This document shows, piece by piece, positions 7,537-46,568 of a stretch of 64,000 nucleotides of DNA; within the stretch, counting starts at the first letter, position 1; each line of letters begins with the position of its first letter. A program made the translations under genes and the position numbers. The stretch is from contig NC_052489.1 in assembly GCF_009730915.1 (NCBI RefSeq), positions 4,491,622 to 4,555,621 on the forward strand, given 5' to 3'. Under the pieces are notes generated by a model. It saw only the letters and a program-made list of their open reading frames with translations, was not told where the DNA came from and did no database searches. This DNA is from Dioscorea cayenensis subsp. rotundata (lineage: Eukaryota; Streptophyta; Magnoliopsida; Dioscoreales; Dioscoreaceae).

Positions 7537-8892
7537 ATGAGGTTTCTCAATAGCTCCCGTGATAGCTTCGGAGTTTCACATAATGGCGCCGGCAACTCTC
7601 GGCAAACTCGTGGAGGATTTTGTGGTGGCTACCGTGGTGCTCATATTAGACTTTCTCGTCCTCTCATCGCTACTTCTAGACACCAGAATCTTAATCCTCG
7701 CACCTTCCATGAGTTTCCACCGGAGAGATCGGCTCCCAAAGACTCTCCGGTGAGGGATGGTGTAACTTTCGCTGAGGTAGTCCGATCTCCTCCTGTTGTG
7801 GAATCCCACCGCCCCGCCTTGGCAGATCATCCACCTCTCAAGCGTCGCCACTCACCAGACTCCGGTAGTGTCTGCAAAAAATGCTTAAGACCTGGTCACA
7901 AGATCGAAGAGTGTAGACATCAACTTAATTGTCGGCGATGTTCTGGAGTTGGCCACCTTGCAGCCCGTTGTCCTATGAGAACTCCTCATCATCCTGAAAA
8001 CAAGAAGCCAAGAGTCAGAACAAAGAACACCCCACCAGCAAGCTGCTCAGAGCTCAAACCCCTCCTCCGTATACCAACCAGACACTCATCATCCTCTTAC
8101 CGTGTTTCTCTGCCCATTACTAAAGCCATCCTAAAATCTAAAGAAGAACTCAAAAAAATGATCACCATCCGAGTCTTGAACGGCAACGCCAGTGTTTGAT
8201 CTCTCCACGATTCACTTCCTCACCTCCGATAATGAGATGCAGCAACCGCAATCAAGAGAAGTCCTTTATCTCTTAACACCAATCTTGGTGTTTGTAAGCT
8301 CAGTCTTTCCCTTTGGACAGCCGAATTTGGCTCGCATGCAGTTACCGCCGGGAATTACAATTGGATCAGACTCTCAAATTTACCTCTTCATTGTTGGAAT
8401 TAGGACTCGACTGTTGATGTGCTCAGGCCTATCGGAGACCTCATTTATGTTCAACAAAAAGAACATGTCTCTCTTGAACATCTTCGAACCCTGGTCAGGC
8501 TAAAAAACCCGATCAACTTCCCACTGGAGGTCACGATGGACGTCGGAGTCCGAAGTTTCATAGTTAAGCTAGTGGACGACGGCATTCATGTGCTCAGATC
8601 CAAGGACAGGCCCTCTCTTTTGAACTTTAACAAGGTGGACAAAGGTAAAAAGGTTCTTTCTCAATCTATCGTTGATGAAATTCCAGGCAGCACTGTTGAG
8701 CGTAGCTCCGGTACTGGCCATACAACGAAGATTGAATGCATGTTTTCTTCGGAAGCTACTCCCCAGCTTCCCGGCGACCGGCAGCTGGCCGGAGTCGTCG
8801 GTTCTTAGCCAGATCCTCGTGTGGTTTCCGAGGTTGGCGACAAACTGTTGCCAAGCAGTGGCAACAAGAAGACAGGCCATTCCACGGCCGAC
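7537..8892 (+). pseudogene. LINE ORF1, 5' part (nucleic-acid-binding protein with CCHC knuckles)
   Basis: The first frame (ATG at 7537, open to 8199) encodes a basic, proline- and serine-rich protein with two zinc knuckles, CKKCLRPGHKIEEC and CRRCSGVGHLAARC, at about 7873-7971. Plant LINE ORF1 proteins use such knuckles to bind the element RNA. Coding similarity passes into other frames (8192-8503, then 8419-8808), so at least two frameshifts are present. The sequence is then cut at 8892 by the hAT element and resumes at 12048. Confidence 0.8.
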
Positions 8893-25240: not shown

Positions 25241-27389
25241 CAATTTGATTGGTGAGCTATAGTTTGGAGAACAAGAGAGAAATATGTATAGAAAGCTTTA
25301 ATAGTGAAGATATTTGATACCGTATTTGCGTCTCTTTGTTCATTTAGGTCTTTGAATACTGTTTCCTCTGCCATATCATGAACTTTAAACTTCGTAGGTG
25401 TGGTAGGCATAAACGATGAACTTCCAAATTAGCACATAATACTCAAGCTAATTTCTTTGCAGAAACACCTTTAGAAGGCTTTAAGTTAATAGTAGATGTG
25501 TCATTCTATATTTGCTTTGATTTTTTTGTTTTATTTTACTACAATGTCACCATCATATTATGAACTTTCTAAACATGAGAATTGTGAGGAAGAATGTCCT
25601 GTTAGATTCTTACTTATCATTCCATGTTTACTTTCACTTAATTCATATACTAATGTTTGAGCTACATGAAAAAAAAAATGATAATTTTAGGTGAGATTGC
25701 TCTAGTCTTTTCTCTCACTAAGGAAAGATCAAGATCTGCTTTCTGAATGTCATCACTTGTGACAGCAATGGTTTTGCTTGTTCAGGAATTTGCTTGTCAA
25801 TTTCATCAAAGAATTATAATATATGATATGCAAAAATACAAGAATGTTCATTCAATGCTTACTTTCACTTAATTCACTTACTAATGTTTGGATTACGTGA
25901 AAAATTGAGAATTTTAGGTGAGATTCATTGATCTAGTGTTTTCTCTCACCAAAGAATGGTAAAGATCTGATTTCTGAATGTTGACACTTGTAACAGTAAT
26001 AGTTTCTCTTATTCAAGAATTTGCTTATTGTCAGTTTCATTGAAGAATCATAATGTATGATATGCAAAAATACAAGAATGCTCAGTACTGTATAATATTG
26101 TATGAAACTGCAAATTAATGTTTTCTGTTCAATTATTTGATTCAGTAATTGAATCAAACTGATTACAGAACAAAGATGAAAATCCATGTTGCGTACATGA
26201 TTATATCTTCATCTTAGAAATGTCATAATAAATCTCATGAAAGTTATTTTGAAACCGAAATCTATGTGATTTTTTAAATTATTTGGATGCTGGACGGCAG
26301 GCTTAAGACTGAATGGATGAAAATCGTGCTGTTGCTTGCCTGATAAACTGGATGTTTGATGACCAAAAATTAGGGTTCTTCTTGCTGAAATTAAAGGGTT
26401 TTTGGACCAATGGATTGTTTTTGTTTTGAAGTGATGCATGAACCGTGTTGGCCCCCCTTTTGGTATGACTTTTTCCTCTTTTTGTTTGGGTTCCATAAAT
26501 CTAAAACAATTGTGTAGCTATCAAGCATAGTTAGGGACATCTTCAAAACATTATTGTAGGAATCTCCACTTGTCCATGTCTTTTAGCTTAAGCCTTTCCA
26601 AAACCTTTCTTTCTTATATCTATTTATATAGATATATTTGAATAATGTAAGCAAGCCATGTTTGAGACAGAAATGAAATATCAATTTACCTATTGTAGGG
26701 ATATATATATATATATATATAGAGGACCCTTCTAGGGACGTCTGGATTCTACATATGTTCTTATATCAGTTATTGGATTTGGATTTGAATTCAACAGTCG
26801 CATATCATCTTTCAATGTGAACAGTGAAATGAATAGTAAATAAAAGTGTAATAAACAATGATTGTATTATAACCGTTCAATCATCTGATCTGTTAATCAT
26901 AGTTGTTAAATCTGATTTACTATCAGGGTGGGAAAAATTTATATAAAACTAATGAAGCAACTCATCCTCGGAATCGAGTACAATTTTTAGTACTATTCTT
27001 CACTTTTGTCTATGTTTCTCTCTCTTACTTTTGAATGTCGGTAGAGAAAGGTAAGGAAAGGTATAGCCATATATATAGTCACTTAAATTTTGATAGAAAT
27101 TAATGGATAAGAATTAAACTTTGTTTATTGCGCTAAGCCATTGGATTAGTATAGTAGATAGTGTGTGCATGTATCTATGTGTGTTCTTACTAATTTTTTT
27201 TAATTAATTAGATTTTATAATTATAAAAAGTGATATTTGCTCCTATACCTTAATCCATAATAAAATTTTGAAGATCTCAATTAATATGGAAATACTCCAG
27301 TTAATTAGAAAATGTATATTTTCTAAGTGAAATTTTTTTTAAAATATGGGGAATTATTACAAACTTGTTTGTAATTACTATTAGAATGC

Positions 27390-34826: not shown

Positions 34827-35552
34827 AGTAGCGTTTAATTGGATGTAATTCTAAATATAGTGGATTTCTAGTTACAATATAATTGGAAATACTTGGTTTT
34901 CAAAATACAGTGCAGTCAAATCTTGTGTTTGGTTGGATGTAACTGGAATTACTGTATTATAAGATTTTATGTTTGTTTGGAAGAATTTGTAAATCTGGAA
35001 TTGGAAAACACATATGTATGTATATGTCTGTAAATATGCATATATATATATATATGAGTATATATATATGTATATAAGTATATATATATGTGTGTATCTG
35101 TGCATATATGCATATATGCATATATATATATACATACCTGTATATGTATATTTGTATATGTAAACTTACTATGTATAGATATATCTAGAGAGTGTATATA
35201 CATACATGTATGTATGTATGTATGTAAAAATACCTATATATGTTTATATAAATATATATATGTATATGTATGTGTGTATATATGCATGTGTATGTGTATG
35301 TGTATGTGTATATGTATATATTTATATATGTATGTATGTATGTATGTATATATATATATATATGCATATACATTGGTTTTGAACTCCCGGGATTTGGTTT
35401 TAAGGTCATTTTGACCGTAATACAAAATCACTTAATGATGGGATTTCAAAAACACATGAAAAATGAAATATTTCAAAACAAACGCTTGAGTTTAAAAAGA
35501 TAAGGGATTTGGAGTTACATGTAACTTCAAATCCCTTGAAACAAACACTACC
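34827..35552. mobile_element. Tourist-like (PIF/Harbinger) MITE with a huge microsatellite
   Basis: The terminal sequences AGTAGCGTTT and AAACACTACC pair at 8 of 10 positions. A TAA target duplication lies at 34824-34826 and 35553-35555, the PIF/Harbinger type. About 35033-35362 is a (TA)n/(TATG)n-rich microsatellite that makes up nearly half the element. Open frames over it are repeat artefacts. Confidence 0.65.
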
Positions 35553-36909: not shown

Positions 36910-36918
36910 ATTAAAATA

Positions 36919-37100
36919 GTGGAAATTGCCAAAAAAACCCTCTAAGTTTGCAATATTACCAAAAACACCCCGTTAGTTTTGCAATCCCCAAAAAAACCCC
37001 TTCCTTTTTAAACTCTATATTTTTTTCAAACCCCCAAAGCATATAACGGATGTGAGCAGTGGGTGATTTTTCAAATTTTATGGACGAAAATGCCCTTGCA
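36919..37100 (+). repeat. Left terminal inverted repeat region of the MULE
   Basis: Starting GTGGAAATTGCC, this contains repeated CAAAAAMACCCC words (AAAAAAACCCTC, AAAAACACCCCG, AAAAAAACCCCT) and ends in GACGAAAATGCCC. The inverted right end (46380-46559) has the same order of features, but with heavy divergence. Confidence 0.75.
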
Positions 37101-37619
37101 TGGGGAGTCGTGGTACGACCATTTCAGTGATATGAGAGGAAGTGGGGGTTTCAGTAGGGTAACCCCAAGAGACAATTCTATCGGAGCCGTTTACTTGTTT
37201 TTTTCTCAACTCGCGTCTTGACTTTTCCATTTCAAGTCGTCTCCGAAGTTGTCTCTCACGTACGACCTCTGTAATTGCAGCTTTTCCCTTTCCACCGGTA
37301 TCTCGAAGGAGAAGTCCCGAGCAAGTAGTTGGCATTTCATCAGTTTGCAATCTAAGGTATTGAGTATGGTTTTATGTTAACTATTCTGTTACAAAGAAAG
37401 ATTTTTCGGTTTTGTTTTGTGCTCTTGTTTTTGTTGGAAGATATTGAAGTTTGCAGGGGGATTTCTCGGTTGGGGTTTTGTTAGGCTGCAGGGTAATTTC
37501 TCGGCTAGGGTTTTGTTTTGTTTTGCATTTTTGTCTGTATACACTATCAAAATAGTTTTTTCGATTGTTATGATTTGTGTAATATTTATAATGTACATTT
37601 CCCCTTTCATTTGATATGG

Positions 37620-37837
37620 TTGCAGTTTTACAAATGAGGTTTACGTTTAAGAAATGAGATGTTACAGTTTAAATTTTGTTGTCTCTTTTTAAGTATTGTT
37701 GTCTCTGTTTAATAAACTAGGTCTCTGTTTAACAATTGATGTCTCTGTTTAAGAACTGAAGGTTACCGTTTAAAATCTTATATTTCCGCTTAAACATTTA
37801 TGAATACTGCATGTTGAATGTGTTGTTATTGTCGCAG
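37620..37837 (+). repeat. GTTTAA-rich spacer or intron in the MULE
   Basis: The motif GTTTAA or a close variant occurs about eight times in 180 bp, often as GTCTCTGTTTAA. The segment ends in the acceptor-like TTATTGTCGCAG at 37837, just before the start of the coding sequence. Similar spacers lie at 38.67-38.87, 40.24-40.43, 41.37-41.55 and 44.40-44.90 kb. Confidence 0.7.
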
Positions 37838-37847
37838 GCTTGTGACT

Positions 37848-40800
37848 ATGGCGGTCAACCTAGTTAATGGGCGGTGCTATTTGACACCGGTAGTGGAGAC
37901 CTTAGCTGAATTGAAAGATAACATGACCCCTCGACATTGGGAGATCATCCGAAGGATACCGTTTGCAGCATTCACTGAGCTGGAAGCTATATACCAAGAG
38001 AGCGCCCTTCTTGATTCTCTATTGCAAAGATACGATAGTCGCACCAATAAATTCAGGATCGGGGAAATCCTGCTCAGTTTCAGGCCTCAAGATGTGGCCC
38101 TCGTTCTTGGTCTGCATTGTGATGGCGACGCAGTCGTGTTTAAGAAGAATAAAACCCGCTCAGTGTTCGAAGGGAGGTATTTATCAAAACCCTACGAGAG
38201 ATACAGAGACTCCATCAAGAGCACTCTTGTGCAACTTGTTCGACAAAGGGGGGAAGAAGAAAATTTTGTCAAACTCCTGATGGTGTACCTCGTGGAGTGC
38301 GATCCTCTTCCAAAAATATATCATGCTCGGTTCGAGCGGATCGTTGATTATGTCGATGATCTACCCGTCGTGGGGCGATCACGCGTGGTCGCGAGCGATG
38401 CATCAAGTGGCTTATGGAGGACATTCCACAGCGACCGTTCGAGTCTGCAAGATAGATGCGCCGGGAAGAAGACCAACACAGGGTATATTAAGGGTTGCTC
38501 GGTCGCGCTTAATGCCTGGTTTTACGAGCTGACCAAAACGGGAAAAAAAGTCCGTTTCGGCAAGATCCCAAGGATGATGTGCTACGGTAAAAGTAGTTAC
38601 CGGAAGCAAGCGACGGTAGAAACCAGACTTATCGTCAGCTCGAAGGAAAAGAGGTAATAAATCATGGACAATGTTTAACGAAGTCTTTAATGTTTAAACA
38701 TATTATTTAGCGTTTAACTTTATTATTCTAGAGTTTAAAAATTTATTCATAAAGGTTTAAATATTTTTGTTCTCCGTTTAAATATATTCTATAATGTTTA
38801 AATATATAAAAACCTCTGTTTAAATATAGTTTTTATAGTTTAAAGCTGAATGATTTTCACTGAAATTGTTTTGGTTTACATATGTTAGTTTCTGAAATGT
38901 GGATTCCGTGAATCTTTGAAGAAGAAATATTTGTTGGGGCAGACCGAGCGGATGGATGCTATTGCTCAGGAACCACTTGCTCGGGAAAGGCGAGATGAGA
39001 GGGCGACCCTCATCGTCTTGGCGCTCAGCGTCGTTCTCCTACTTCCGACCCCACTGCGCGCGCGTTCCCTCGGCGCCGGGAGAAGCCCTCCCCTACCCCG
39101 CCGATTGCAACAACCCCCTACTGACGACAACGGCGGTCCCCCGATTATGGCGGCCCCGACCATGGCAGCCCCTCGGCAGTGGCGACCCCACCCGGATGAC
39201 ATTAGGCGAAGATGTCATTGCAACTCTTATGCAGGCGTGCTAGATATTGATGACCGAGTTTCTTCAGCTTGTCGCTCGTGTTGAGGCACTGTAAGAACGT
39301 TCACAATCGACTGCGCCGTCCCCCCAAAGACATGAAGCACCTGGGATGAACAAGGCGTCGGAATTTGGCGAGCGACGCATCGTCATCGGGGTGGCCGTTC
39401 CAAGACGGCCACATTCGAAGAGACTTGCAAAAAGAGAAGAACAATCGCCTCTGTCTCCAGCTCTACGGGTGACGATGAAACAATAGCAATACCATTGGCG
39501 GGTCGATCTTTATTCTCGAGTTTGTCGCCGTTGATGACATGGCCATGACGATAGAGGACATCGTAGATGATGTGGCCGTTGCTATGGTTAAGAAGATCGT
39601 TTACTCTCTTGTTAACGAAATCCCCGACCCGGTGGGCAAAAGTGCTACGCCGAAGTCGCGACGATCAAAGATGGACACAATCCACGAAGAACAAGAACAA
39701 GCTAAGGGTGTGTCTCCCGGGTTGATCTCTATTCTTGCAGTGGCCGTGGCCAGACGATCGCATCAAAGTAGGACACAATCCCTGCAACAAGAAGAAGCAT
39801 GTAAGGGTATATACTGCGGTTGATCTTTGTCATCTTCCCGCGTCGAACCCGGACACAATCCCACAACAACAACAACCATGTAAGGATGTGATCGCGGTTG
39901 ATCTTTGTCACCGTCGTCCCGCGTCGAAGCCGGACACAATCCCACAACAACAACAACCATGTAAGGATGTGTCTGCGGTTGATCTTGTCGCCGATCCCCA
40001 GCATCGAAGGAAGATCTTCTGCTGGTCTTTGAACACCGTCGAGGCTCAGCGAGCGGTGCCCATGAAGACCCGATCGAGCAGCGAGAGAGATGATCGAGGC
40101 CCAGATCAACAATGGGACGAGGCGGCTCGAGAAAGTCTTTGTTCGAAGAAGAAAAAAATGGGTTGGCAATCGGCGTCTTAACAAATACTGACGAGGGAGT
40201 TGATGATGATCTTCCTCAACTGCCGTATGGACAGGTAAGTTTAAAGTTTTTATGATAATGTTTAAATTTTTTATGATAGTGTTTAAAGTTTTTATGATAG
40301 TGTTTAAATGTTTATATATTATCATTTAATTTATCTACCTAACGTTTAATTATTTATAATATCATTTGAAAATTGATAATATCATTTAAATATTTAGAAT
40401 ATGGTCTAATTATATATGTTATTGTTTAACCTCAGCACTGTCGTGTAAGAGAATGACGTTGTCAGCACCACACGGGACAAATTATATACTCTTCTTGAGG
40501 GGAAGGAGATGGTCACAGATGATGTGATGGACGCTTTCGTATGCATAATACAAAAGTCACTGAGCAAAGTGCCATATCCTTACAAGAAGCCTCCGTCCTG
40601 AGCCAAGATCATCGGCGACTGTTTATGTCAAAAGTAGGATGAGCCTTGCATGAAACAACTATGGCTATGATCGGAGATCTTTGTCGCAGACTTGCATGAA
40701 GTTCAAATTGTCGTCCCTCTCGATAATCATGAATGGCCACTTCCATGTAGTCGTCGTCCTTGACAATGATAAACAAGAATCTGAGGGCGTTATTCTTCAT

Positions 40801-41130
40801 GCACGGGAGTACGAAAAAGACGCGTTGGACATGGTAAGTTCTTTAATTATGTCCGATTAATAGTGTTTGTTATTTAATCGGTATTTTTAATCTCAACTTG
40901 CATATCTCGAGCAGTGGAATCTATTCGGCCAGTTGTGTCGATATGGAGTTCGGCGAGTCGGCGACGCAAAGTACCCACTAGATTCACGACATGGAAACCC
41001 CACGCCAAAAATAAGGAATCGTCGATTGCGCCGTCTATGTCATGCGGTTTATCGAGCAATTACTTTGGGGTGAGAAGTTACGGCTACCACAGACAGATGT
41101 TCCTTACCTGAGATTAAAGTATATTTCCCG
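37848..41130 (+). pseudogene. MULE passenger gene: DUF1985-like region and Ulp1-type protease
   Basis: Exon-like 37848-38657 is open for 270 codons and starts MAVNLVNGRC after an acceptor-like CAG. Its part with FRIGEILLSFRPQDVALVLG resembles the DUF1985/plant-mobile domain found beside Ulp1 domains. 38.9-40.2 kb is a low-complexity, charged linker including an 80-bp tandem repeat. The protease-like region starts near 40.44 kb after a clear intron (donor GGACAG/GTAAGT at 40233, acceptor near 40435). It has VPLDNHEW then HVVVVLDND in shifted frames (about 40711-40765) and, after a second intron (GTAAGT at 40834), DCAVYVMRFIEQLLWG with the would-be catalytic Cys at 41027-41029. Ulp1 enzymes cut SUMO from proteins. 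The linker and the histidine block are frameshifted, so it is called broken. Confidence 0.75.
39673..40005 (+). repeat. ~80-bp tandem repeat inside the passenger gene
   Basis: GACACAATCC starts units at about 39673, 39771, 39851 and 39932 (periods 98, 80 and 81). The last three encode, in one frame, the repeated peptide DTIPQQQQPCKDV...AVDL. The period is close to 27 codons, so the repeat could have kept a protein linker open. Confidence 0.8.
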
Positions 41131-41589
41131 CATACTTAAGGTGGGGAGGCGGCACGGCGTCCATGAGAAAGGGGTCGTCGGGAAGAGGGTTAAATTTTTG
41201 TTGTCGAAGAACGAGGACTTGTATATGTCAATGTCAATTTTGTTTTCGAATGTAAAACCCAGGACAAATTCAATTCATTGTTTTTTTGTTTTTTCGAAGT
41301 ACATGACTTGTATATGTAAATGTAAATTTTGTTTGTTTTTCAATTGTAAAGCGAGTTAAATTCGATTCGTTTTATTTCATTGTTTAATTCTGATGTCATT
41401 GTTTACATTTCAGTTTAATTGTTTAAATTTATTATTTACCGTTTAAATATCGGGTTTGAAATATTTAAAATTACAGTTTTTTCATTTAAAATAACACTCG
41501 TCTACTGTTTAAATAAATGATAACACTATAAAGAATAAGAGTTTAAATATGAACAGTTGCCACTCAATTCAGATTGTTTCTCTTTAGAA

Positions 41590-44141
41590 GTCAGCTTATT
41601 TACAATGCCGAGTCTACAGTTTATTTACAATACAGTTTCATTGCAAGATCTACGATTGTGAGGACGGATCCATGGCGGCCAGTGAATGTAACTCGTGGAC
41701 ATCAAGCAGCTTGCGACTCGATCCTCTTTCGTCTAGGGCCTTGGTGCCTTCTCGTCGCGAGTCGATGCAAAAGCGAAGGCGAGCGATTTCCGTCGCAAGG
41801 CTTGTCATCGTCGGGTATGAGGAATATAGCTTCCTTATACGCCCGACTTGTAATTGTCGACGGTGAAATAGAAGCTAATAAATCGATGAGCGTTGGTGTC
41901 ATGCATGCGTTATTCTGCAGGCAAGCGTGTTCTGCAAAAGGATACCATAAACTTGCCACCTCGACATGAACAAGTTACGATGGCAAGATCTCACGAGTTG
42001 CTACTGCTGGTCGATCGCTTCGTAAGCGATCATCGACACAATGACCAACACGAAGATTTCGGCTATCCTCGACAATTATCTCTACCTTCGAATGTATGTC
42101 GGGCGTAAGTAGGTCTCTATTTGTTCGCTTGCTCACTGCCGGTTTACATAACATGCGCATCAACTTGAACTTGGCAAATAAGGTTAAACAAAGACGGTGA
42201 TGGTTAAATAATTGAGTAAACTTGTTTTAAAGCAAGTATGGTAAATATTTAAACGATTAAATTAATATTTAAAAAGTCAGAACGATTTTTAAATAAACAA
42301 ATATGGAAATGTTTAAAGGGTAACACTAAATGTTAAGTACAAATCAACATTCGCAGACCTTATGGAGTCGACCATTTTCAGTCGACGGGTAAATGACGAG
42401 CTTCTTTGATCCAAGCATTGAGCGACTCGCGACATTTGAATACATCTCACCCCAACGATTACCTCGAGCAGGATAATTCGACTAATGTGCCATATCCGAT
42501 TTATTAATCAACGATTGATGGGCTTGGGTGATGTGGCTTGTAGTTCATTCAGCGGTATCATCGAATTCTTTAGCGGGTGGATGCCCACGCAATGCGAAAG
42601 CATATAGACTCGACGACTCTCCCTCAATGCCTTCCCAAGTCCGACATTGGCTTTCGTAAAAATTGGCCTCAAAATGTCGAAGGCGGTATGCGTGTGGCGA
42701 AGAAGGAAGACTCTCGCAATTGCGTTTACAAGGCCCCTTGGACTCGTCTCGACATGAAGGTAATTATCTCATTATAATCTCCTTCCTCGTATAAAGCATC
42801 GCCTAACTTGGATATGAACCAAGTCAATTAGGCGTCGGTCTCGTTGTCGACTATATCGAAGGCGATGGAAAAACTCATTGTTTCTATCTTTCCCTCGTGG
42901 CACCCGAGAGTGTCCACGATACTTTCCAAGGAGGTGGGTACCATCGAGAAAAGCAGATGACTTGCAAGCCCTCTTGAATCCTACAATACACGCTACCGAA
43001 AAGAAAAGAATGCACGCTTAAAACGATCACCGTCTCTTTCCACGATCGCATGGCGATACTGGGGGTTTTGTCTCGGCCACCTTATCCGCATACCAAAGCA
43101 ACAAGTCGTAGCTCGAGATGTCAGCTGACTCGAGGACCACCCGATCATGCTCTTTTTCCCAACCAAGCTTGCTTGTATGGTATGTGGACACCATGTTCCC
43201 GCAATATGTCCTTCGAATGTCGATGGCCTCGTACTGGCGGTCGCGAGCTTCAGATACTCGCGATGCGCTTACCCGTTTTTGGGACGCTTTTTGGATGTGG
43301 CGCAGAACCTATTCCCACCACCGCAAGTGTGTGATGGGTTGATTGTCTTGATTTTTGAAAAGTATTTTTTTATTATACTCTTTTGATGCGTGAAGGCGCC
43401 TGATGACAACCATTGGCGGTAGCGATTCCAGATCGAACAATATTTTTCGTTCTTTTATGAATTTGAAGTCAGAAATTCCGTTTGATTGCAAAATTTCAAG
43501 CACGTCCCTGAAATATTCAACACGTCAAAAGCGTTGTCCGATATCCATACTGACGCTTGCGTAATGATCGACGAGGAAAGAAGACATCCCACACCGTCCA
43601 GTGGTCACTATGGGGTTGAGCAGGGAGCGCTCGAGAATCGAATTCTCCCGGCACTTGCAGTTAAATGAAAAGATCAATATGTTAAGCAGAGAATAGACTG
43701 TTTAAGTGATAAAGTAAATAGTTAAACAATGAACAATTAACTTAAACGAATAGTACAAGATTTTAACCAGTGACTGACATACTTAAACAATAATGAACCT
43801 ATACAACTGGATCGAATAAAGAGAAGGAACTTCACTGACGAGTAAAACTTCGTTTTCATTAGGATTTGACAATCTGCGTTATGCGTCTCGACAACAATAT
43901 CAACTACAGCGCATTTGAAGATGGAGTGCACGTGACACATCCGCTGAAAGTCAACATCGTTTTCTATTGGACAAACCGTTTTATATCCATCGGGTGTGAT
44001 AAATTTCATCCTGACAAGGGAAACTTCGAGACCCTATCGCTCACATATCTCAGCTAACACCAACTCCCAAGAAGTCTGAGCCGTGAACATTAGCACTCTT
44101 CCCTCCCCGTTGTATCTAGCAATACCACAAAAACTCTCCAT
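41590..44141 (-). pseudogene. MURA-like MULE transposase, decayed
   Basis: On the minus strand the start MESFCGIARYNGEGR at 44141 leads to the PB1-like N-terminal part, VKFITPDGYKTVCPIENDVDF. Further on, IDIRRTYCGNM and SKLGWEKE match the segment before the catalytic domain, and DRFKRAF then GFKRACK precede DGTHLLGKY, whose first catalytic Asp is at 42953-42955. The C-terminal end (41.6-42.1 kb) has a SWIM-type zinc region with a PFAEHACLQ-like remnant and the GPRRKRIESQ tail, where intact proteins continue to a CCHC knuckle. Frameshifts and stops break it, and introns with inverted GTTTAA motifs lie at about 42.18-42.35 and 43.67-43.80 kb. Intact MURA cuts at the element ends. Confidence 0.85.
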
Positions 44142-44399
44142 AATAAATCGGGCGAAAACCAAATCGTACAAACCAATTGAAAAGAAGAACATAAAGAAGA
44201 AGAAGAAGAAGAAGATGTAAAGAACAAACAACAATCAAAAAGGCAAACAAAAAAGTGTACAGTTGTATGCACAGAGGTTAGACTAGACGTGATGTGATTG
44301 GACGATATTTTTCCCTCCATCCTAAGGGCAAAAAAGGAAATATATGTCACTGTCGCGAGGAAGCCATATTGTCATCGCTCGAATGAAAGTTCTCACCTT

Positions 44400-44895
44400 A
44401 TCATGAGTCTCTGTTTAAACGTCGAGCTTTTTATGTTTAAACCGATACATATAGTGTTTAAAAATAAGTTAACTGTTTAAATAAATTCTATATCATTTTA
44501 AATAATATGTAAAACCGCTTTAAATATAGTGATTTAACTATTTTTAAAATATATGTTATTGTTTAAATTGAATGCTTTCACCGACATCGCGTTGAAGATG
44601 GAGTACCTCTCGGAGTTCTTGTTTAAACATCTTTATGTATTTGCTAAACACCGTTGTCGATTGTTTAAAGAGTAAATCGATTATTGTTTAACTTTTTGTT
44701 TTGTTTTGATAATGCCATTTTTGTTTCTCAAATTATTTTTTTACTATGTCTCTGTTTAAATTTCACAAGTTATCACAAGTTGACACTCAAATAAGTTTGT
44801 TTGTTTAAAAATTTAAAGCGTTTACAATGGAGAATCGATTAAATATCGGAAGTTCACACTCAAATAAACTTGTTTCATTTAAAAATAAAACATTT
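44400..44895 (+). repeat. GTTTAA-rich spacer in the right half of the MULE
   Basis: At least ten GTTTAA motifs occur in plus orientation, many as TGTTTAAAY. The spacer separates the transposase gene from its partial duplicate. No coding is seen. Confidence 0.7.
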
Positions 44896-46450
44896 ACAAC
44901 ATTTACAACATTTACAACATCTTCTCGGACCTTGGACGCTTGCGTGAGTCGACCCTCGTTCGATCTATTAAGATTTCGGTTTGACTCTCATAAAGTATCA
45001 TGACGTTCGAATGCTCACTGCGGTTGCATAACATGTGCATCAACTTAAACCTGCACAATGTAGAACGCAACACATTAAAAAAGGTTAAGCAAACACATTC
45101 ATAAAAAAACATCTATTAGTCGATGTGTCGTGGTCCGACTTAGCGAAAATCATGAGAGTTAAACACGAAAGTAATATTTGTACTCGCATGCGAAAGGTTC
45201 TTAAGCGGTAAGAACAATTCTCAGTGATAAATATCAACTCCGTCTTAAAGGATGTTTCATGATCTTCCTCCTCTAGAGAATCCTCCGCAATCACGTAATA
45301 AGTGAAAACTTTCTTTTCTTACCCAAGTCGAAATGCCCGCTTAATTGCTTGCTCAAATCGTCCACTGGAGAATCCTCTGCATTGGTGCGATTATGCGAGA
45401 ATTTCGACTGAGGCGAAAAAAGATAGTTTAACTATTGCGTGATTACGACGATGATCTCAAGATGAGGGAGGATCAGAGACATCCTTTAAGATCAAGTTGA
45501 TCTTGAATTACTCGATCGACTCAGTGAATATCATACACGAAGCGGATGAGGAGGAGGAGGAGGAGGATGAGGGGCAGGAGTGGTTGTCCGTGGAAAGGGT
45601 TCTTCTTTGTCATTTATGGTGTGAAGTCCACAGCGAGGTTGACGCTCATATCCGATAAAAAAGTAAAAGCGACGATGGGACCGAGATTGGTCGATCGCAG
45701 CGAGCGGGTGTTCGGACATTTATGTCACCGTGCACGAGAATTAATGCGTCATTAATTCTTATGCAGCGAGATCATACCTCTGCTGCCACCACTTGCCAAC
45801 ACTTCGATTCAAACGAAAAGATCGATATCTTACGTGAGAGACTTTGAGAATTTACACGTTCATATGAATAGTTAAACAAGTAAAGATAAATTTAAATGGA
45901 GCGACAATTATTAAAAACAAATTTGTAATATATTTAAGCAGGATAATAGTAAAGAGTTAAACGAGTATTTAAAAATATACAACTAGATAACCATAAAGCG
46001 AGAAAGAACTTTACAACTCATTTAAAAGATGGAGTCGCTTCGACCAATCCGATGGAAATCAACTTCATTTTTCATTGGAGAAACCGGATTATATATTTCG
46101 GTGTATGATAAACTTCACCCTGGACTCGTTTCTCAGAAGCAGTTTACATCTATCATTACCACAAAAACCCTCCATAATAAACACCCGTAAAATGGTCAAA
46201 ATGATAGTAACGAAGAGATTCTCACCAGATATTCGAAACCCAAGCGTAGCGAAGTCGAATAAACCAAATGAGGAGAAATGAGGAGAAGAACAAGATGTAA
46301 TGCAACTTAGTAGCATTGTCTATCATAAACCAAGCGGAAAGCTCTGAAAAAGGTTGGACATGATGTGATTTGGCGCTTTTTTTTCCTACCATTTTCATGG
46401 GCAAAAATGGGATTTCACAGGATGGACCCATTTGAAGTGAACGGTAGGGG
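44880..46450 (-). pseudogene. Partial duplicate of the transposase region
   Basis: The segment repeats parts of 41.9-44.36 kb in the same orientation. 44.93-45.06 kb matches 42.04-42.19 kb (CTCACTGC...CATAACATGYGCATCAACTT). 46.02-46.13 kb matches 43.91-44.01 kb (AAGATGGAGT...GATAAAYTTCA). 46.36-46.43 kb matches 44.28-44.34 kb (GATGTGATT...GGGCAAAAA). A second ATG with MEGFCG sits at about 46169. The copy is shorter and more broken than the first, so it is a decayed, internally deleted duplicate. Confidence 0.7.
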
Positions 46451-46559
46451 GTAAAAGGAAAATTAAACACTAACGGAAGGGTTGTCCGGGGTGTGTAAAA
46501 GTAGGAGGGAATTTTTTGGGAAGTTTTGAAAATTACGAGGGGTGAACAGTAATTTTCCC
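46380..46559 (-). repeat. Right terminal inverted repeat region of the MULE
   Basis: Read inverted it begins GGGAAAATTACTG, followed by CCCC-rich words and an AAATTCCC block like the left end, and ends in a CCCATTTTTGCCC element equivalent to GAAAATGCCC on the left. The 9-bp duplication follows at 46560. Confidence 0.75.
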
Positions 46560-46568
46560 ATTAAAATA

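Follow-up and report, generated by a model that had tools for sequence, protein, structure and literature searches.

The 64,000-nucleotide stretch of Dioscorea cayenensis subsp. rotundata DNA analysed here (the window) contains at positions 36919..46559 a copy, now decayed, of a large family of Mu-like DNA transposons, and we consider it likely, with a probability of roughly 0.75, that this family carries a self-targeted anti-silencing system of the VANC type. The 9.6-kb element comprises a transposase gene on the minus strand that faces a gene with DUF1985-like and Ulp1-like regions on the plus strand, and its noncoding parts contain arrays of the word GTTTAA with a spacing of ~20.5 bp. In a second clade of DUF1985 loci, arrays with the same phase are built from another word, TGTGTA. 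Taken together, the phased arrays, the change of the motif with the DUF1985 clade and the VANC literature point to self-targeted anti-silencing, which would explain the retention of the DUF1985/Ulp1-like gene.

Arabidopsis VANC21 is described to bind YAGTATTAY and to occupy its own VANDAL family most strongly in introns and in intergenic and terminal noncoding DNA where such motifs are repeated in tandem (Hosaka 2017, PMC5735166), and VANC6 to target AGTTGTCC/AC (PMC5735166, PMC10398659). The target words form tandem repeats that are said to arise by tandem duplication, and the VANC proteins combine DUF1985 with variable regions containing tandem peptide motifs (PMC5735166). Moreover, according to a 2026 review, some VANC genes possess an Ulp1 domain and represent the Kaonashi genes, and KIU-carrying Vandals recognise specific noncoding motifs (PMC13317346).

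Phased GTTTAA arrays in the noncoding DNA of the element

The window copy contains 57 GTTTAA sites on both strands, four of which represent the second strand of the palindromic GTTTAAAC. By position, 51 sites are located in eight arrays (Table 1), five are isolated noncoding sites and one lies in exon 1, corresponding to a noncoding share of 56/57 in an approximate gene model with 5.1 kb of coding sequence and 4.6 kb of remaining DNA. Outside the element, no GTTTAA pair with a spacing of 19-23 bp was detected on either strand of the window. In line with these numbers, GTTTAA was the most over-represented hexamer in 16 copies of the element, with 592 occurrences on the plus strand, 7.7-fold over a dinucleotide model. 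In these copies, same-strand neighbours were spaced by 19, 20, 21, 22 and 23 bp in 10, 172, 98, 67 and 18 cases, respectively (365 in total). The remaining spacings, listed from 6 to 69 bp, comprise nine cases at 8 bp, one at 12 bp, none at 9-11 and 13-18 bp and 23 at 24-39 bp, followed by a second peak at 40-42 bp. The best period was 20.4 bp for the pooled copies and 20.6-20.7 bp for the window copy, which corresponds to about two helical turns, and the vector strength was 0.71 in both, a value that 200 jittered versions of the window copy did not approach (0.36 at most). The sequences between the words carry little information beyond their A/T content in clade A (see below), as judged from the spacers alone, since the selection of exact words fixes the six motif columns.

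The pattern extends to the entire 584-Mb genome, whose 2,249 contigs also made up the search space for element copies. GTTTAA triplets spaced by 19-23 bp occur 16,808 times (overlapping; 8,223 + 8,585), whereas the reversed pattern yields 52 (24 + 28). At a spacing of 24-28 bp the numbers are 19 (4 + 15) and 51 (30 + 21), respectively. With 13.3 triplets per copy, the phased triplets would correspond to about 1,260 element equivalents; this figure is rough, since the triplets are overlapping and the word seems to be in use in other families as well. Long GTTTAA arrays with a regular, GTTTAAGAAATGAGTTTTCT-like unit of ~20 bp were also observed on contig C1 of the genome (G000) at 25732-26740, 1109467-1110651 and 2889312-2891152; these arrays, unlike the window arrays except the 5′ one, probably represent a related family with the common word.

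A second DUF1985 clade with equally spaced arrays of another word

A genome search for DUF1985 yielded 455 candidates, of which 150 loci were scored and 20 were taken as DNA. The domain exceeded the cut-off in 127 of the 150 listed loci, with clade-A loci of the present family among them, and was found in none of 14 control genomes; to our knowledge, DUF1985 is restricted to plants. By protein identity, the 20 loci fall into clade A (11 loci, together with the window copy), clade B (five) and clade C (four), the identity between A and B being mostly 42-52% (~45%). Branch supports for B and C are at least 0.998 in an unrooted tree, which hence does not address A as a clade. No BLASTN match to the element was obtained for the clade B and C loci.

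A blind word search at these 20 loci, with simple-repeat words excluded and 10 shuffles each, returned GTTTAA for clade A and TGTGTA for clade B. The former gave 77 pairs at 18-22 bp and the latter 25 pairs at 19-23 bp, as compared to shuffle maxima of 2-4 and 1-3, respectively. At least three phased GTTTAA pairs are present in 10 of the 11 clade-A loci, L043 having two pairs and a TATATA repeat that scored higher; the overlapping TTTAAA outscored GTTTAA in four clade-A loci. Likewise, all five clade-B loci contain at least three TGTGTA pairs, and in L030 the related TGTATA scored higher. The array positions relative to the DUF1985 exon agree between the two clades: one is found ~240-410 bp upstream of the domain, and the other directly follows the exon. 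Moreover, the base preceding phased GTTTAA is T in 55-64% of the sites, and the cores TGTTTA (A) and TGTGTA (B) are therefore one base apart. In the whole genome, 1,630 TGTGTA triplets with a spacing of 19-23 bp were counted, a few of which are visibly microsatellites, versus 145 in reversed order; with 24-28 bp the counts were 48 and 54, respectively. A lone phased TGTGTA pair at 35273 and 35293, just outside the window element, may be due to chance.

With the two clades sharing positions and the ~20.5-bp phase, we tentatively suggest, at odds slightly short of even, that the words were replaced in parallel across arrays, so that the spacing would be conserved and the word could be switched, and that the attached Ulp1-like region may have changed and is possibly non-catalytic.

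Retention of the words and selection on the DUF1985 exon

Within clade A, word retention was determined in the noncoding parts of 12 sequences at 75-95% identity, comprising 10 of the 11 loci (L043 was left out), the window copy and L009. Whole GTTTAA words were retained at 0.72 (n=1605) as compared to 0.41 for the pooled permuted words (n=3775), where retention is conditional on the exact word in one copy and sequence pairs are not independent. Correspondingly, the retention in 12 full-length copies was 85% for GTTTAA, 78% for TTAAAC and 69% for permutations of GTTTAA.

For the DUF1985 exon, the ratio of nonsynonymous to synonymous substitution rates (dN/dS) ranged from 0.15 to 0.27 among the 12 clade-A pairs with the largest dS (0.64-1.10; each pair involves L039 or L046), and the four closest pairs gave 0.47-0.70. 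The median was 0.42 for clade A, 0.375 for clade B and 0.62 for clade C, some B and C pairs being saturated. These values fit purifying selection on the exon while the family was active, followed by later decay, and are less clear in clade C.

The window element as one copy of a large family

The window copy is flanked on both sides by the perfect 9-bp target-site duplication (TSD) ATTAAAATA that the original prediction had reported, and 9 bp is the TSD length of VANDAL elements. The similarity of the inverted ends, described along with it as imperfect, is weak, with a global score of 122 versus a maximum of 96 in 100 shuffles. To find other copies with the same ends, the genome was queried with the initial 482 bases of the element. 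This gave 2,289 first-look candidates, of which 40 were scored; apart from the window, the remaining 39 places matched these bases at 87-90%. The 20 best 5′-end matches after the window were fetched as 10-kb loci, a sample thus chosen by the 5′ end; all of them start with the element end and most also hold the 3′ end (Table 1). Long BLAST pieces of these loci are 83-91% identical to the window copy, and 12 aligned copies of more than 9.3 kb show pairwise identities of 88-94%; of these, the window copy is one of the most diverged.

Among 15 checkable copies, the window included, 13 have a perfect (10) or 8/9 (three) TSD when small end shifts are allowed, and two (L019, L022) have none; without shifts, seven of 15 are perfect and two more match at 8/9. 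An absence of other copies with these ends, which the original prediction had named as a refuting outcome, was not observed. As a control that covers the unshifted comparison only, the flanks of mismatched copies agree at a mean of 4.7 of nine bases, and at least eight agree in 2.2%. In addition, family copies match positions 8312-8586 of the element (45230-45504) in inverted orientation with ~70-74% identity, indicating an internal palindrome-like segment.

Two convergent genes

The plus-strand gene was originally described as containing DUF1985-like and Ulp1-like blocks. In the window copy these are weak, with all Pfam values under the cut-off (PMD 0.0021, DUF1985 0.023, Peptidase_C48 0.023). 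The sister copies scored better: PMD in exon 1 reached 1.1e-11, over the cut-off, DUF1985 in L009 7.7e-8 (32.9 bits, just under the cut-off of 35.1) and Peptidase_C48 in L016 1.2e-4, over the cut-off and in convergent orientation with the transposase. The likely splice signals of the gene are intact in most of 12 copies. Exon 3 alone gave no Pfam match. In the Ulp1-like part of the 12 aligned copies, the candidate catalytic His codon is present in 12/12 and the Cys codon in 11/12. The residue at His+17, which we take to be the spacing of the catalytic Asp in yeast Ulp1, is Ser in the nine copies listed with an open frame. Therefore, SUMO protease activity, and with it C48 protease activity of the Ulp1-like region, appears doubtful on the basis of this presumed Asp spacing.

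A structure predicted for the window DUF1985 exon from the single sequence was unusable (mean predicted local distance difference test score of 33). Sequence searches against the PDB yielded no match for the His exon and, for the Cys exon, a non-cytoplasmic protein (0.24) and SENP5 (0.64), which are suggestive only. Two matches of the DUF1985 exon at 0.03 (Dot secretion protein, Lpg0081) were taken as chance.

A genome search for C48 listed 47 matches. Ten of these lie 1.0-2.4 kb downstream of a DUF1985 match, all on the same strand, and 37 have no listed DUF1985 nearby, both lists being partial. In the clade-C locus L034, a C48 match is located 1.8 kb downstream of DUF1985. None of the five clade-B loci has a listed C48 match within 20 kb, which says little, as the split C48 region of the family itself is also unlisted.

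The MURA-like transposase remnant (DGTHLLGKY, GFKRACK) was confirmed on the minus strand. Stops and frame breaks disrupt the transposase and the Ulp1-like exons of the window copy, and none of the five window pieces submitted to Pfam matched a transposase domain. The matching regions of sister copy L018 gave DBD_Tnp_Mut (1.2e-20) and the Mutator-like element (MULE) domain (4.6e-16), and L016 gave SWIM (4.5e-10) and PB1 (1.4e-4; 22.1 bits, just under the cut-off of 23.6); these stronger scores refer to sister copies translated as they are. A genome-wide MULE search, in which 150 of 3,312 candidates were scored, was saturated by other MULEs and placed no transposase for clades B and C. The fragment at 44883-46144 shows 30-48% identity to the C-terminal part of the transposase (seven copies) and a short N-terminal match of 54% (one copy), and no match to the DDE core was found in it; it may be a duplicated transposase gene with an internal deletion. 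No VANB-like gene was identified in the open reading frame lists of the element, beyond which no search was aimed at VANB. The shared ends, the TSDs and the sister-copy C48 match opposite the transposase support the initial assignment as a decayed MULE with an Ulp1-like gene of the Kaonashi type.

Table 1. Positions of features of the element in the window
Feature	Position	Strand	Evidence or remark
Left TSD copy ATTAAAATA, 9 bp	36910..36918	.	End comparison across copies
5′ element end (GTGGAAATTGCC...)	36919..37010	+	Weakly inverted relative to 3′ end; 20/20 fetched copies match from base 1-3
Array 1, phased GTTTAA	37645..37795	+	Upstream of start codon; probably 5′-UTR intron, CTAAG/GTATTG ... 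CGCAG/GC
Exon 1 of VANC-like gene, plant mobile domain/DUF1985	37851..38654	+	Donor GTAATA aligned in 12/12 copies
Array 2, phased GTTTAA, intron 1	38673..38845	+	Nine exact plus-strand copies 19-22 bp apart
Exon 2, low-complexity variable region	38889..40235	+	Open over 453 aa in L016; 81-bp (27-aa) tandem repeat at 39771-39993
Array 3, phased GTTTAA, intron 2	40239..40429	+	Position, copy alignment
Exon 3, Ulp1-like, GHFHVVVLD (candidate catalytic His)	40440..40833	+	Frame broken in window, open in several sister copies
Exon 4, Ulp1-like C-terminal part, DCAVYVM (candidate catalytic Cys)	40915..41240	+	Pfam, copy alignment
Array 4, GTTTAA, downstream of Ulp1-like exon	41382..41546	+	Six window sites, two in phase
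Transposase C-terminal region, SWIM zinc finger, CCHC-like knuckle by eye	41612..42175	-	SWIM 4.5e-10 in L016
Array 5, mainly TTAAAC on plus strand (sense to transposase), between transposase exons	42184..42316	-	Three window sites, more in sister copies
Transposase central exon, DBD_Tnp_Mut and MULE DDE domain	42316..43660	-	Broken in window; inside 457-aa open frame in L018
Array 6, mostly TTAAAC on plus strand, between transposase exons	43700..43788	-	Position, copy alignment
Transposase N-terminal exon, PB1-like	43830..44120	-	PB1 1.4e-4 in L016, under cut-off
Array 7, both orientations, mainly GTTTAA on plus strand, upstream of transposase gene	44413..44819	+	Copy alignment
Second, decayed transposase-like fragment	44883..46144	-	No DDE-core match; carries own array
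Array 8, TTAAAC on plus strand	45872..45962	-	Two window sites; up to five aligned positions among sister copies
3′ element end	46472..46559	-	14/20 fetched loci hold 3′ end
Right TSD copy ATTAAAATA, 9 bp	46560..46568	.	End comparison across copies

A model of self-targeted anti-silencing and its alternatives

Why a transposon retains a SUMO-protease-like gene was the puzzle posed at the outset. The arrays, the clade-specific words and the VANC literature point to anti-silencing as the answer, the binding and demethylation steps being the part that we infer. The DUF1985/Ulp1 protein would bind the phased GTTTAA words on one and the same helix face, and the bound protein would strip silencing marks from its own family, upon which both the transposase and the anti-silencer could be expressed. 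The DUF1985 protein and its target word would co-evolve, and TGTGTA at the same positions and spacing in clade B is as expected. In eudicots, DUF1985, DUF287 and Ulp1 have reportedly been gained and lost, and the sequence, density and helical periodicity of the motifs are said to set specificity, a finding attributed to Sasaki et al. 2022.

Several observations weigh against the anti-silencing model. The array sites are related by descent, and their counts are not independent. Among the permuted words, 33 had an n of 20 or more, and three of these were kept better than GTTTAA. The flanking columns in clade B are partly conserved, and plain tandem duplication may give part of the signal there. 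Clade B and C elements were viewed over about 3.4 kb each, a stretch that would not show any transposase and Ulp1 region of clade B. In clade C (L029, L033, L034, L037), the best word within 1.5 kb of DUF1985 reached six pairs, as compared to shuffle maxima of 2-5, and DUF1985 without detected arrays coincides with the higher dN/dS median. Finally, arrays 1-6 are for the most part in sense orientation to the local gene, an arrangement that a role at the RNA level would suit as well.

This orientation, and the position of most arrays in likely introns, would be accounted for if the words were bound by the transposase or used in splicing or RNA processing of the element's genes, and some plant transposases (TNPA, Ac) do bind short repeated motifs near element ends. 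We nevertheless regard this explanation as unlikely: the arrays lie in the interior of the element and away from its ends, array 7, located upstream of the transposase, runs mainly antisense to it, and we know of no splicing signal that needs a 20-bp phasing.

It appears quite unlikely, too, that the arrays are functionless minisatellite relics, i.e. a ~20-bp unit expanded by slippage in AT-rich introns. Tandem Repeats Finder does detect four arrays with a period of 20-21 bp, one of them 91% alike, the clade B units have some flanking bases in common, and tandem duplication is also the origin given for the VANC targets. However, the clade-A spacers are nearly uninformative, one word is common to eight separate arrays, GTTTAA is retained above the pooled permuted words, a clade without BLASTN similarity has another word at the same positions and spacing, and a shift of the spacing by 5 bp reduces the triplets from 16,808 to 19.

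An ordinary MULE with a captured host ULP fragment as passenger, similar to a Pack-MULE, is highly improbable: transduplication of ULP genes by MULEs is repeatedly reported (PMC2528002), one catalytic residue may be missing from the Ulp1 part, given the presumed spacing, and most listed C48 matches stand without a listed DUF1985, yet the DUF1985 exon bears signs of purifying selection across subfamilies, the ten C48 matches downstream of DUF1985 share its strand throughout and the splice signals are mostly intact.

The anti-silencing model makes the question of why transposons retain a SUMO-protease-like gene testable, since it predicts the exact words together with their spacing and positions. 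Moreover, it would extend VANC-type self-targeting to a genome in which its success on a large scale seems likely, given the 16,808 phased triplets, and the two words at one spacing provide a natural pair for locating the specificity residues of DUF1985.

Comparison with known systems

With MAIN/MAIL1, host proteins needed for silencing (PMC7156037, PMC9899485), the family shares the plant mobile domain, for which exon 1 of a sister copy is over the cut-off; unlike there, the domain is located inside a transposon together with DUF1985 and C48. Like the Kaonashi MULEs and KIU genes of Hoen 2006, as cited in passages of PMC13317346 and PMC2528002, the element has an Ulp1-like gene opposite a mudrA-like gene and apparently weak or no terminal inverted repeats, whereas the phased word arrays seen here are unmentioned in those passages of the citing papers.

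The VANDAL/VANC system differs in its words, YAGTATTAY or AGTTGTCC/AC as opposed to GTTTAA and TGTGTA, and in the Ulp1-like region that is attached here. The likenesses comprise a Mu-like transposase, a separate DUF1985 gene, word arrays in introns and intergenic noncoding DNA, a variable region with tandem peptide repeats (exon 2, with its 81-bp unit open in L016) and related families with different words (GTTTAA in A, TGTGTA in B, none within 1.5 kb in C). Judged by its anatomy, the window element is thus best read as a member of the VANC/Kaonashi-type Mu-like elements with a target word of its own.

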